Positions 7,740 to 18,122 of a DNA stretch of 52,743 nucleotides are shown in pieces. The position numbers were made by a program, and so were the translations under genes. Below the pieces are notes generated by a model. It was not told where the DNA came from. It did not search any database and saw only the letters and a list, made by a program, of their open reading frames with translations. Positions within the stretch are counted from its first letter, which is position 1; each line of letters begins with the position of its first letter. The stretch is from a virus, in the IMG/VR virus record IMGVR_UViG_3300044628_000447, positions 1 through 52,743 of that record. One strand, written 5' to 3'.

Positions 7740-8051
7740 ATGAGACTAGACCACCCACTGATTGGCGCATACGAAGCCTGCATGTCAACCTACGAAGAGT
7801 CAAAAAGGTTGAAGCAGTCTGGTAGGTTTGTGTTTGCCAAACAGCTTAAAGAGACAAGGGCAATGCTCGGTCTAACTTGCAGGCAGCTTGGAGGGTCAAT
7901 CGGGGTTACAGGACAACTTATCAGCCAAATTGAAACAACTGCCAAAAGTATCTTGAACCGAGATCAAGTCCAAAAAATTGTAGAACTATGCTCAAACGCA
8001 AAACACCCCTCCGCGCCAAATCTGGATTCAAAAAGCGAGGCGGGAAATTAA
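7740..8051 (+). CDS. XRE-family helix-turn-helix regulator, 103 aa
   Basis: Residues about 33-85 form a Cro/CI-type HTH: FAKQLKETRAMLGLTCRQL, then a VTGQLISQIE recognition helix region. The N-terminal 30 residues are an extra extension and the C-terminus is short and polar, with no CI-type peptidase domain. It faces a leftward promoter carrying the dispersed palindrome, making it the leading candidate to bind those sites. It overlaps the HNH gene by 64 bases in another frame. Confidence 0.75.
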   Translation: MRLDHPLIGAYEACMSTYEESKRLKQSGRFVFAKQLKETRAMLGLTCRQLGGSIGVTGQLISQIETTAKSILNRDQVQKIVELCSNAKHPSAPNLDSKSEAGN

Positions 8052-8302
8052 ACGCAGTCAGCGATAGGCGTAAGGAGCTAAACAAAGAATATGCATCAGT
8101 CCGTAGAGAGTATCTGCTATCAAGCTCAAGGTGTGAAGTCTGCGGGGGAGAAGCTACGGACATACATCACAAAAGTAAAAGGGGTAAGAACCTATCTAAC
8201 AAAGATACGTTCATGGCTGTTTGCCGCCAGTGTCATACCAACATCCACGACAATCCAGCGTGGGCAAGAGAAAAAGGATATTTGATTTATGAATATAAAT
8301 GA
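7988..8302 (+). CDS. HNH endonuclease-like protein, 104 aa
   Basis: A basic N-terminus (KRKTPLRAKSGFKKRGGK) precedes CEVCGG, DIHHKSKRG and CRQCHTNIH, the zinc-paired HNH core with IHH and the final Asn-x-x-His. Small phage HNH proteins of this shape act near packaging or recombination. The gene starts inside the XRE gene and ends overlapping the next one. Confidence 0.75.
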   Translation: MLKRKTPLRAKSGFKKRGGKLNAVSDRRKELNKEYASVRREYLLSSSRCEVCGGEATDIHHKSKRGKNLSNKDTFMAVCRQCHTNIHDNPAWAREKGYLIYEYK

Positions 8303-9166: not shown

Positions 9167-11959
9167 TCATTCGCCCCAGTCATCAGTAGCATAATCTTCC
9201 TCATCAGCAACTAACGCAGGCTTTTCATCTCTTGACCAAAACCTATTAGTTGGAACAGCTTTATCGGTTCCGATAAAAACAAGTCCGTTCTTTCTAGCGA
9301 TTTCTAAGGCGTATACAAATGAATCCGCGCAATTATCTACAAGGATTCCATTAGCATAATATACATTATCATTTTCGAGGACCAAGTTTAATACCCTTGC
9401 GTCCCTTGTTTCTTTTGATGATCGCACAACTTTTGGAGCAGCAAACGCGCTTCCTGTAAGGATCGCCGTTAAAATCTTTACCACATTCAGCACATTTATA
9501 GGTAACTGTTTTATACTTTTCACGATTTGCATTTTGGAAACAAGCCCCGCTACAATACTTGGATTTTGTTTTGTTTTGTGTGATGACTGGTTTTCCGCAT
9601 TGCTTGCAAGACCCATCAAACTTTTCACGTTTGAGAATGCTGTTGTATGCATGATTTCTATGCCACTCTCTTCCTTCTTCTGATGAGTGCCACTCTTTTG
9701 CCGCCTCTTGAGCAAGCTTAAGAGACTCCAAATTCCTTGCGTAATAATGTTGGTCTTTGAATCTTTCTTGCATATGCATCCGCATGTGTTCGGCTTTTGA
9801 AAGAAGCTCCATATTTTCAATTCTGTTATCAGTCCAATCGCCATTCTTGTGATGGATTTCAAGGCCATCAGGAATAGGCCCGTTGTGCTCAATCCAAATG
9901 ACTCGATGTAGAAGTCTCTCGCCCGTAGCCTTGTTCCAGTCTTGATAATATCGACCCGTTGTTTGAATGCCGTATTTGCGTCCGTTGTGAATAATGAATT
10001 TAGGATGTTCCATACAATTAGTCTTTCTTCAGACTCTATTGTATATGCGCCCGAAAGGTTGTCAAGCCTGACCCATCCATCTTCCCATGTAAAAACACGA
10101 TGTTTTCCTTTTCCTTCAAGAACTCTTCCATCACTAAATTCTACTTTGCATATTTCGTTGTGAATTTCATCATGGATAAAAGAAATTTTTGTTACACCAA
10201 AAGGAGTAATCACTTCATCTCCGGGCGTTAGATTTTCAATCTTTACTTGACCTTTTGGAGTCAAAATCAATGTTCCCTCAACAAAACAGTCTGGCGAGTA
10301 TCCAATTCGCGCCTTAAAATCATTCTTAGTCTCAATAGAAATCTTGCGAGTCTTTAGAGTATACCTTCTAAGGCAAAGCTCTCTACCAAGCTCGCTGGCA
10401 TAATCAATTCCCCATATCGTTCTACTTTTGAATCCGTGATAGGCAGAATAGTGGAACTCGGATACAAGACGATCATAAACATCCTTACATGGACGCTTAT
10501 CCACATCCGCCGCGATACGGTCAGTCGGCCTACCCATAGAAGAGATTAGAACAATACTATGTCCATTTTGGTCATACTTTAGCCACTCTCTGATAATAGC
10601 CTGCCCAACCCTACCGCCATCACCGGACACGTCCATACCAAATCTCTTTGGCTCAACACCAGCTTCTCGGCAGATACGGACAACTTCAGTAGCAAGTTGG
10701 TTCTCAAATTCAGCAGTCTCTCTAGCGGAAAGCTGGATAACGTGCTGTTTCTCCATAAACATTACTTTGTTTTGAGTCCCGCGAACATATCCAAGTTTGG
10801 CTATTGTAAGCACGCACCTATCGCCTCCAGCGGTAAATGCAGTATCAAATCCCGCTACTTTGGTTAATCCCTCTGAAGACCACAATGGTTCATCTGCGGT
10901 GTTGGCGTTACGTATCAAGTCGCTAGTAAGAATGGTCTGAGCAAAGCCAGCCTTTGGCCACCAGCCAATAGCGTTACGAACATAGTCAACAGCATTCTCA
11001 TCACCGTAGCACTGCCGCAACATCTGAGCCTGCTTTGTCCTATCCATTAGGAACGGGAATGGTGGAGGCTCATTAGATGGTGCTTGAAAGTTTGGCGAAC
11101 GCATGCCGTTATAGAACAAGCAAACGCCTGTCTCGGTTTCCCACTTGTCCATGTCCATTGACACGCTTTCAAAGTTAGCCTGCCCTCTTGGAAGACACCA
11201 ACGTGTATGCGGATTGTCACCAGAAGATGGGTTGCCGATACCGATAAACACCTTATCGTCGTTAGAAGAAAGGTTGACTTTACTTGTCAACGCACCCATC
11301 TCCATTTCTGGCAACTCATCAAGGGCCAATCGAATCCTACTGTTCTTACGACCACGGGTTGTGTCAATAGCCTTCTGTCCTTCGTTACCTTGAGGGAATG
11401 CCAGAGCTTTAATAGCGTTACTGTAGTCCTTTTGGTCTCCACCGTCTCCACCTCCCCATACGATCATGTGGCGGTAGTCCATTAGGTTTCCAATCTTAAT
11501 CCGCGAACACTTCCATAGCTTTGAGATGATACCCCAGATACGATCCTCGGACGCACCGATAGTCGTAGTGGCAACCCAAGAAGATGTGCAGGTAGGAGCG
11601 GAACACCAATCAAGAAGAATCCAAAGACCAACAGGAAACGACTTACCCATAGATGCGGCTCCAGCAAGAACCACGTCATCATTATTGCAAAGCTCTTCAA
11701 TAGTTCTAAGAAGCTGAGTATTCATGTAGCCTCTTGATTTTATAGACACATCGTTAGGCCACTGAAATTGAACTGCTTTAATAAAATGCTCGAATGGAGT
11801 CAGTAACTTAAAGTCGCCTAGATCAATATTATTCTTAATGCAATAAGTTCGGCCATACTGACCACGGGTTATTGAGTAGCAGAACAATTCAATACTCAAA
11901 TCGTCCATTGTGTCTGGAAAAGCCATCCCGTATTTATTGATCGTTTTCTTGCTTGACAT
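9167..11959 (-). CDS. Terminase large subunit with intein
   Basis: 930 aa from the ATG at 11959 (a TTG at 11974 is possible). It packages DNA into the procapsid. The ATPase has Walker A GAASMGKS (100-107) and Walker B LALDE; the RNase H-type nuclease has GFDTAF, FGMDVSGDGG and a final Asp. A 319-aa intein (residues 558-876) splits the final nuclease motif, between SPD and CADSF. After splicing the protein would be 611 aa, normal for TerL. It is transcribed opposite to the structural module. A dispersed palindrome lies in the C-terminal extein. Confidence 0.9.
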   Translation of the reverse strand: MSSKKTINKYGMAFPDTMDDLSIELFCYSITRGQYGRTYCIKNNIDLGDFKLLTPFEHFIKAVQFQWPNDVSIKSRGYMNTQLLRTIEELCNNDDVVLAGAASMGKSFPVGLWILLDWCSAPTCTSSWVATTTIGASEDRIWGIISKLWKCSRIKIGNLMDYRHMIVWGGGDGGDQKDYSNAIKALAFPQGNEGQKAIDTTRGRKNSRIRLALDELPEMEMGALTSKVNLSSNDDKVFIGIGNPSSGDNPHTRWCLPRGQANFESVSMDMDKWETETGVCLFYNGMRSPNFQAPSNEPPPFPFLMDRTKQAQMLRQCYGDENAVDYVRNAIGWWPKAGFAQTILTSDLIRNANTADEPLWSSEGLTKVAGFDTAFTAGGDRCVLTIAKLGYVRGTQNKVMFMEKQHVIQLSARETAEFENQLATEVVRICREAGVEPKRFGMDVSGDGGRVGQAIIREWLKYDQNGHSIVLISSMGRPTDRIAADVDKRPCKDVYDRLVSEFHYSAYHGFKSRTIWGIDYASELGRELCLRRYTLKTRKISIETKNDFKARIGYSPDCFVEGTLILTPKGQVKIENLTPGDEVITPFGVTKISFIHDEIHNEICKVEFSDGRVLEGKGKHRVFTWEDGWVRLDNLSGAYTIESEERLIVWNILNSLFTTDANTAFKQRVDIIKTGTRLRARDFYIESFGLSTTGLFLMALKSITRMAIGLITELKIWSFFQKPNTCGCICKKDSKTNIITQGIWSLLSLLKRRQKSGTHQKKEESGIEIMHTTAFSNVKSLMGLASNAENQSSHKTKQNPSIVAGLVSKMQIVKSIKQLPINVLNVVKILTAILTGSAFAAPKVVRSSKETRDARVLNLVLENDNVYYANGILVDNCADSFVYALEIARKNGLVFIGTDKAVPTNRFWSRDEKPALVADEEDYATDDWGE
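9261..9276. promoter_or_regulatory. Dispersed palindrome in TerL gene
   Basis: TTATCGGTTCCGATAA in the C-terminal extein. In TerL sense the spacer is GAAC, the commonest form, and it encodes FIGTDK. Confidence 0.75.
9332..10288 (-). mobile_element. Intein in terminase large subunit
   Basis: Cys1 (codon 10288-10286) opens CFVEGTLILTPKG (splicing block A). GKGKHRVFT supplies the block B His about 65 residues later. The C-terminal blocks F and G are LNLVLENDNVYYANGILVDN, ending in Asn (9334-9332) before Cys+1 of the extein. The middle has no recognisable LAGLIDADG or HNH domain in this frame. Instead, an HNH gene lies out of frame over the same bases. The usual penultimate His is replaced by Asp (VDN). 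Confidence 0.9.
9369..10013 (-). CDS. HNH homing endonuclease nested out of frame in intein
   Basis: 214 aa with its own ATG and a purine-rich GAAGAAAGA upstream. N-terminal half: HRVIWIEHNGPIPDGLEIHH, then NGDWTDNRIENMELL and HMRMH, the classic HNH core with IHH and N-x-x-N-L-like segments. C-terminal half: cysteine pairs CKQC, CSGAC, CAEC and CSKSC, two zinc-finger-like units for DNA binding. It should cut intein-less TerL genes to spread the element. Its last codons overlap intein block F in another frame, so both proteins are encoded by the same DNA. Confidence 0.88.
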   Translation of the reverse strand: MEHPKFIIHNGRKYGIQTTGRYYQDWNKATGERLLHRVIWIEHNGPIPDGLEIHHKNGDWTDNRIENMELLSKAEHMRMHMQERFKDQHYYARNLESLKLAQEAAKEWHSSEEGREWHRNHAYNSILKREKFDGSCKQCGKPVITQNKTKSKYCSGACFQNANREKYKTVTYKCAECGKDFNGDPYRKRVCCSKSCAIIKRNKGRKGIKLGPRK

Positions 11960-11994
11960 AATTCCATTTAACAATAATTCTATATTTACACAAG

Positions 11995-16484: not shown

Positions 16485-16706
16485 TACAGAGTATGCCGAA
16501 AGCGTGAGCAATTAGGGGGATCAGTCCGCTCTGGCTGGCGAGTTTCCAATCTCGCATAAAAACTGGTATTCCGGACTGGTCTATTTTAATAGGCACCGAG
16601 GGTTGACTCCGGCTCGAAAGAAACAGGCACTCGCTTGATGCTTTCGAGTTTTCGTAGCAAGTGCCACAAGCAACAACAAAAACTAACTCAAACAAAATAC
16701 ACTAAT
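16485..16706 (+). ncRNA. Structured capsid mRNA leader with pseudoknot
   Basis: Visible helices: CAGTCCG 16522-16528 with 16572-16578, enclosing GCGAG/CTCGC (16538-16542/16551-16555); then CTCGAAAG 16613-16620 with CTTTCGAG 16641-16648, whose loop GGCACT (16626-16631) pairs with downstream AGTGCC (16660-16665). That last pair makes an H-type pseudoknot. The ATG at 16707 follows an unstructured A/C-rich stretch with no SD. It may stabilise the mRNA or control capsid translation. Confidence 0.6.
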
Positions 16707-18122
16707 ATGTCAGAAATGATTCAATTCAATTCGTGTGAAGAGTTGGACAGCTTTTTCCGCGAGGGTCGTGAGTATTTCAACGATCTTTACGTCAAGAAGC
16801 TTGTCACCAACTCCACATACTTCACCCGTTTCGAGGAGCAGCCTTGGCCCCTCAACCACACCACCGAGCAGAAAGGTTTCCGTTTCGGTCGTGGTTTCTA
16901 CGATCCTTGCACCCCTTTCCGCAAGATTGTTGACGGATACTGCGAAACCGATTCTTGCTCTACCTTGAGCGAGGTTATCCAACGCCCCGGCACGGAGAGC
17001 TACACCTTTGAGCTTCTGCGCAAAGAGATGCACACCGACTGGATTTGCGTTGAGAGCCTTCTCTATCGCCTCTTCCCCGCTGAAGAAATTCTTCAGTTTG
17101 AAGAGAGCAATGCCCGTATCACTAAGAACGTGCATGAAGAGTTCCTTCGCGGCAACTACATTGGTGGTTCCGGCCACAAGTGGGTTGGTCTGACCACTGA
17201 TGACGGCACTTACTGCGGTCTTCTTGATGACGCTGCTTGGTTCGTTCCAACTAGCGACAACCAAGAAAACTCCAACAGCGGTTACAACCTCTGTGAGCTT
17301 CGCGTTAAAGTTGCTGTTGCTGATCTTCCTAAGATCGCTTACCTCTCGCTCGACATGCTCGATGACGCATTGATCGACCTCCAAAACGAGGACGACGCTT
17401 TCCGTCTCGACATCGCAGAAGCCACTGGTATGCAGCTTCTTGACATCGTTATCCCTGACCCTCGTGTTGGCCGTGCGCTTTACTTCCAAGCCAAGCGCAA
17501 CAACGGTTACTGGGATGCAAACACCGACTTCGACGCACGCCTCTCCAGCCTCAAGCTGGGTGTCAATCGCGTTATCGGTGACTACGCATTCGGATACGAC
17601 ATCAACGCCGCTCGCTTCAACGCAGCCCCGTCTGCCGATCAGCCAGCAGGACCATTCAGCCCGACCGATCCAACCACATGGGCGAAGCTCGTTCGCGTGC
17701 CTCGCTACACCAAGATCGTTCAGGAGAACGGTTGCAGCTACATCCCGAACAAGGATTACGCAAATGCCGACTTCGCAATCTCGGTTGCTATGGTCAACAA
17801 GGCAATGATCAAATGGACAATGCCTTCTCAAACTGGCTACAGCCAAGCTCAGATGATGGGCCAAAACTACGCTGGTGATTGGGAGTGGAAGAATCCAGAT
17901 TGGGAGTGCAACCGCTGGCGCAAGATGGGCTTCTATCAAGCTCAGTTCCGCCTCGCAGCACAGATCAAAGACCCAACCTTGATGCACTCATTCCTGCATC
18001 GCTTGCCTAAGACCAAGAACCTCTACGGTTCCTGCTGCCCTCTGAATGACTACACACCTCCGACTGAACCAGTCGATTGCTACAACTGCAATGGTGTTGG
18101 CGACATTCAAGAACCAGCCTAA
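16707..18122 (+). CDS. Major capsid protein (candidate), 471 aa
   Basis: Start at 16707 chosen; longer in-frame ORF to 16635 would translate the structured leader. The gene has the richest codon bias in the window (C-ending codons), its own promoter and a hairpin after it, all as expected for the most abundant virion protein. The protein is rich in aromatic residues and Cys, with no clear HK97 signature readable by eye. A large antisense ORF here is a codon-bias shadow. Assigned by position, expression signals and size. Confidence 0.8.
   Translation: MSEMIQFNSCEELDSFFREGREYFNDLYVKKLVTNSTYFTRFEEQPWPLNHTTEQKGFRFGRGFYDPCTPFRKIVDGYCETDSCSTLSEVIQRPGTESYTFELLRKEMHTDWICVESLLYRLFPAEEILQFEESNARITKNVHEEFLRGNYIGGSGHKWVGLTTDDGTYCGLLDDAAWFVPTSDNQENSNSGYNLCELRVKVAVADLPKIAYLSLDMLDDALIDLQNEDDAFRLDIAEATGMQLLDIVIPDPRVGRALYFQAKRNNGYWDANTDFDARLSSLKLGVNRVIGDYAFGYDINAARFNAAPSADQPAGPFSPTDPTTWAKLVRVPRYTKIVQENGCSYIPNKDYANADFAISVAMVNKAMIKWTMPSQTGYSQAQMMGQNYAGDWEWKNPDWECNRWRKMGFYQAQFRLAAQIKDPTLMHSFLHRLPKTKNLYGSCCPLNDYTPPTEPVDCYNCNGVGDIQEPA

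Follow-up and report, generated by a model that had tools for sequence, protein, structure and literature searches.

Two reading frames in one terminase gene

How can the same bases carry an uninterrupted intein and, in another reading frame, a complete endonuclease gene, and what would the two products have to do with each other? The question is raised by the gene for the large terminase subunit (TerL) in the virus record IMGVR_UViG_3300044628_000447, all 52,743 nucleotides of which are referred to here as the window. The TerL precursor ORF, intein included, occupies positions 9167..11974 on the minus strand (935 aa); its real start is probably the ATG at 11959 (MSSKKT...), as opposed to the listed TTG at 11974. 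The first-pass annotation had read the intein frame as uninterrupted over 9332-10288 and had placed a complete 214-aa HNH protein with its own ATG in a different frame at 9369-10013. Both readings hold: the TerL ORF crosses the 957-bp intein without a stop, and the HNH ORF (minus strand, with its own ATG and TGA and, about 5 codons before the ATG, a stop in its frame) has exactly these coordinates.

The best reading of this arrangement is a separately initiated HNH gene lying out of frame within a TerL intein that looks competent for splicing, a layout that is conserved across many phages. Specifically, we consider it highly probable that the locus is a mobile TerL mini-intein with a separately expressed HNH homing endonuclease nested in it, where we infer splicing, expression, cleavage and homing from the sequence. 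According to this proposal, TerL would be translated through the intein, after which the Hint domain, composed of the first ~92 and the last ~34 intein residues, would excise itself and rejoin TerL at the nuclease-motif site. A second reading of this DNA, in another frame, would yield the 214-aa HNH protein as a product in its own right, initiated at its own ATG and probably transcribed from its own internal promoter; this protein would cut intein-free terL at the insertion site, with repair from the intein-bearing copy spreading the element as a whole. Selection in the shared stretch would act on the HNH protein, and the intein frame would need only to stay open.

Splicing signature and insertion site

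The N-extein of TerL (10289..11974, minus strand) ends with ...GYSPD at a nuclease-domain motif and is followed by the 319-aa intein (9332..10288, minus), which runs from Cys1 (10288) to Asn319 (9332), and by the C-extein (CADSFVYALEIAR...; 9167..9331, minus). The exact joined site is displayed by two close relatives that lack the intein, L010 and L011 (TerL 88% identical), so that the 957 bp are a precise in-frame insertion after ...GYSPD with a known empty allele; the next codon (9329..9331, minus) is TGC, the +1 Cys, in the intein-bearing allele and TTG (Leu) in the empty one. Among the relatives with the nested layout, the exteins match the TerL families Terminase_3, Terminase_6N, Terminase_3C and Terminase_6C.

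The window's intein possesses Cys1, the block-B His, the C-terminal Asn and the +1 Cys, and its penultimate residue is Asp as opposed to the usual His. All 80 nested inteins with resolved ends combine Cys1 and a terminal Asn with a +1 residue that is either Cys (71) or Ser (9), and in an intein alignment of 74 rows, C1, the block-B His (H63) and the terminal Asn (N319) are the only invariant residues. The N-terminal splicing region with blocks A and B (10014..10288, minus), which matches Hint_2, lies outside the HNH gene, and the C-terminal region with blocks F and G (9332..9433, minus) shares its first part with the 3' end of that gene. In the AlphaFold2 model, residues 1-90 and about 290-319 have pLDDT values of about 94-98, compared with about 35-84 for the overlap, much of which is at 35-75, and the best Foldseek matches of the model are inteins (E 3e-6). 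The intein ends thus carry all the splicing residues, and the fold predicted for them is that of a Hint domain.

A search for group I or group II intron catalytic RNA returned no Rfam match within the window, and on this result we reject a group I intron. Nor is the gene split: the intein is contained in a single ORF.

The first-pass annotation had also stated that the intein frame shows no endonuclease domain. This is borne out by the Pfam matches in that frame, namely only Hint_2 and a weak match to Intein_splicing; the other frame over 9369-10013 matches HNH_3 with E=1.2e-19. The layout accordingly departs, as the annotation had proposed, from the usual in-frame fusion, in which the endonuclease domain of a full-length intein is read in the intein frame. 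The further claim, that splicing and homing are encoded on the same bases, stands in part. The splicing domain is formed by residues 1-92 and about 286-319 of the intein, and within it the HNH C-terminus shares bases with the start of block F alone; what remains of the overlap (9434..10013, minus) is, in the intein frame, an open linker with low predicted structure and low amino-acid constraint.

The nested HNH protein, its distribution and mobility

The HNH protein contains an HNH_3 catalytic domain (HNH residues 34-78; 9780..9914, minus) and two Cys-rich, zinc-ribbon-like motifs (about residues 136-196; 9426..9608, minus) in which C136, C139, C154 and C158 are invariant; the HNH_3 match together with the invariant His, Asn and Cys residues provides the catalytic motif and the DNA-binding modules expected of an HNH homing endonuclease. 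Its AlphaFold2 model has a pLDDT of 92, and the best Foldseek match is the homing endonuclease I-HmuI, a weak one, with no fold match in the PDB below E=0.001. The window encodes a second small HNH protein (7988-8302, plus strand; 104 aa; PHROG HNH endonuclease, E=1.9e-11), on the strand opposite to terL and about 0.9 kb away from its 3' end. Elsewhere in the window, a 425-aa ORF (16710-17987, minus) is antisense to a 495-aa ORF (16635-18122, plus) and is probably spurious; neither of the two has a PHROG match.

The first-pass annotation had suggested looking for the same layout in other TerL inteins, and it was found in 94 loci, many of them with unrelated TerLs. The fetched loci of the HNH family comprise these 94 contiguous nested cases (phase f+1), 4 contiguous nested cases in phase f+2, 11 HNH genes between the halves of split TerL inteins and 18 HNH genes with no intein detected, most of the latter located directly downstream of an intact terL; because the loci were sampled by similarity to nested HNHs, these proportions do not represent natural frequencies. 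The nested layout is therefore not unique to the window, and its recurrence in more than 90 phage packaging genes, both related and unrelated, marks it as a genuine, widespread alternative to the fused design. In nearly all loci the HNH gene starts about 200-290 nt after Cys1, and it mostly ends 37-73 nt before the intein end. The isolated phages with this layout are Tetrasphaera phage TJE1, Acinetobacter phage Highwayman and Rhodobacteraceae phage LS06, in all of which only TerL is annotated; if our reading is correct, many TerL annotations conceal a second gene.

The split-intein loci include L083 and the Vibrio phages 1.238.A (L030) and 1.245.O (L031). In these two Vibrio phages, TerL and a separate 'hedgehog/hint domain protein' resemble the halves of a split TerL intein, and an unannotated HNH gene overlaps both apparent halves. 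Several other loci are worth recording. The TerL at L110:1275-4701 seems to have a second intein start, at the Walker A motif, besides the intein with the nested HNH (f+2 phase). Related HNH proteins are free-standing just upstream of terS in Acinetobacter phage BP10 (L156) and nested in the TerL intein of Highwayman (L029). Finally, a possible intein of the canonical type, with the HNH domain in frame, is weakly matched at L148:3181-5044, from a Dependentiae genome.

The layout states are intermixed on the HNH tree. Members of this family also stand free next to terL, and a role in cos cleavage is known for HNH proteins encoded beside the terminase (PMC10448857), which could be taken to mean that the nested protein is a packaging partner of the terminase, like the HNH protein of HK97, with its location inside an intein being incidental. 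We regard this possibility as unlikely, given that the protein belongs to HNH_3 and that the close relatives L010 and L011, whose TerLs group with that of the window inside an intein-bearing clade, are devoid of both the HNH gene and the intein. Moreover, the HNH gene is degraded in some inteins (L024 and L025) and moves between TerLs that share no detectable similarity: among the HNH pairs that are at least 42% identical, 121 of 280 reside in TerLs without significant blastp similarity.

Selection on the shared bases

Which of the two frames is maintained by selection can be read from comparisons among nine close relatives. Codon periodicity switches at the borders of the HNH gene, and within the overlap, amino-acid identity is 79% in the HNH frame versus 64% in the intein frame (59% in the interior). 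The difference at fourfold-degenerate sites of HNH in the overlap interior (0.36) is close to that in the neighboring N region of the intein (0.35), and every change at these HNH sites alters an amino acid in the intein frame. Taken together, the fourfold-site rates and the identities suggest that it is the HNH protein that is conserved, under purifying selection, and that the intein frame is a linker that needs only to be open. By these measures, conservation of the shared middle is confined to the HNH frame, the intein frame being kept free of stops and no more, in agreement with the AlphaFold2 prediction.

In two loci the HNH gene is damaged while the intein remains open: in L024 it is broken by a stop, and in L025 it is shortened by an in-frame deletion. 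These cases would fit the view that homing has decayed, leaving the HNH ORF as a relic and the intein alone functional; they are also what would be expected if homing decays before splicing. For the window, a relic seems quite improbable, considering that the HNH gene is intact there and in the close relatives, with invariant catalytic and Cys residues, and is under purifying selection.

The openness of the intein frame is less telling for one gene than had been assumed. The first-pass annotation gave a chance of about 3e-5 that such a frame stays open; this value derives from the wrong null model and overstates the evidence from a single gene, given that in synonymous-codon shuffles of the window's HNH gene, with the protein held fixed, the intein frame is open in about 15% of the cases. 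With a single-gene chance that is not small (0.15), we rely on the comparisons at the level of the family and with controls. Across 81 non-redundant loci, 206 stops in the intein frame are expected from the shuffles and 0 are observed, compared with 1457 observed and 1561 expected in the third frame; the 81 loci had been selected for an open intein frame, so that the fair comparison is with HNH genes outside contiguous inteins. Among these controls, another frame is open across the HNH gene in 0 of 18 homologous genes without a detected intein and in 0 of 11 genes located between split-intein halves. Stops are thus avoided where the HNH gene is nested in a contiguous intein.

Possible signals for separate expression

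Several features of the 81 loci point to independent initiation of the HNH gene. A stop in its frame precedes the start by a median of 5 codons and by no more than 10 in 55 of the 81, 64 of the genes begin with ATG, and Shine-Dalgarno-like matches of -5 kcal/mol or better precede 39.5% of the HNH starts versus 14.4% of other internal starts (p = 5e-4); in the window itself this match is weak, at -1.0 kcal/mol. The DNA upstream of HNH starts also has elevated promoter-like scores, and in the window a promoter-like element (TTGACA-16-TACAAT, 11/12; 10038..10065, minus) ends 24 nt before the HNH ATG, although a promoter scan of the region detected no excess of such sites. The element coincides with codons for conserved intein residues (LD, TIE). 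No synonymous change is seen in the six conserved degenerate codons that its hexamers cover, as against 39 of 49 in the intein codons that precede them; this conservation is suggestive only, because the hexamer codons also encode conserved intein residues. On these sequence signals, the HNH protein is probably made from its own promoter inside the intein.

The intein and HNH frames overlap in one direction, an arrangement from which programmed ribosomal frameshifting could produce an intein-HNH fusion. The stops in the HNH frame shortly upstream of its start, the prevalence of ATG at that start and the enrichment of Shine-Dalgarno-like and promoter-like signals there make such a fusion very unlikely. 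A sequencing or assembly error that displaced an ordinary in-frame HNH domain, for which two compensating indels in a single contig would in principle suffice, is practically negligible, being refuted by an independent contig from another metagenome (L002; a match of 10,382 bp to the window, whole element included, with 0 mismatches and 0 gaps) and by the retention of the frame relation in relatives (eight other close loci at 70-84% identity, several at about 30% and 94 loci overall), as well as by the HNH gene's own start, the upstream stops and the change in codon periodicity at its borders.

Comparison with known systems

In its general logic, the element recalls group I introns with internal homing endonuclease ORFs, in which the endonuclease is likewise encoded within a splicing element inside a host gene; in the window, which lacks Rfam matches, splicing is predicted at the protein level. 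Canonical full-length inteins are similar to the window's intein in that the endonuclease is located between blocks B and F, the position of the nested HNH gene, and in that they are mobile and inserted at a conserved active-site motif. The difference is that the canonical endonuclease is in frame, whereas that of the window has a start and a stop of its own in a different frame. Inteins have also been described in the TerLs of mycobacteriophages, where they are located in the ATPase domain (PMC5050341), whereas the window's intein occupies a C-terminal nuclease-domain motif and contains the nested HNH gene.

Split inteins with an HNH gene resemble the window's element in that the homing endonuclease gene is separate from the intein and lies between blocks B and F; they consist of two genes, whereas the intein described here is one uninterrupted ORF that overlaps the HNH gene. 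Such 'fractured genes', split inteins with a homing endonuclease gene between the halves, were reportedly described by Dassa in 2009. An example with an HNH gene is PolB of phage MIJ3 (PMC6892783).

A literature search found no intein with an out-of-frame endonuclease, though a preprint outside its coverage (Gosselin 2025; 10.1101/2025.01.02.630785) may report this layout. Somewhat tentatively, we suggest that TerL inteins with a nested out-of-frame homing endonuclease could be a large undescribed class. Because one HNH family is found free-standing, nested in two phases and between split halves, nesting may be a bridge from a free-standing homing gene to an intein, and stops may turn contiguous inteins into split ones. 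If so, a homing endonuclease would not have to be part of the same polypeptide as its intein: it could be a separate gene, overprinted on the intein linker, that can be expressed and lost independently, and there would be a testable path by which a free-standing homing gene could join an intein and a contiguous intein could become a split one, a type widely used in protein engineering.

Among published cases, the ShiLan domain comes closest: an HNH protein encoded out of frame within a methylase (PMC11855218). As in the window, the HNH protein has zinc fingers, the insertion is open in the host frame and the distribution indicates mobility. The authors of that study found no splicing domain and thought that the insert stays in the protein (PMC11855218), whereas in the window a Hint domain is present and a complete intein surrounds the HNH gene. 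Thus, judging from the sequences, the nested layout is a widespread variant of the association between inteins and homing endonucleases, in which splicing, separate expression and homing are all predicted.
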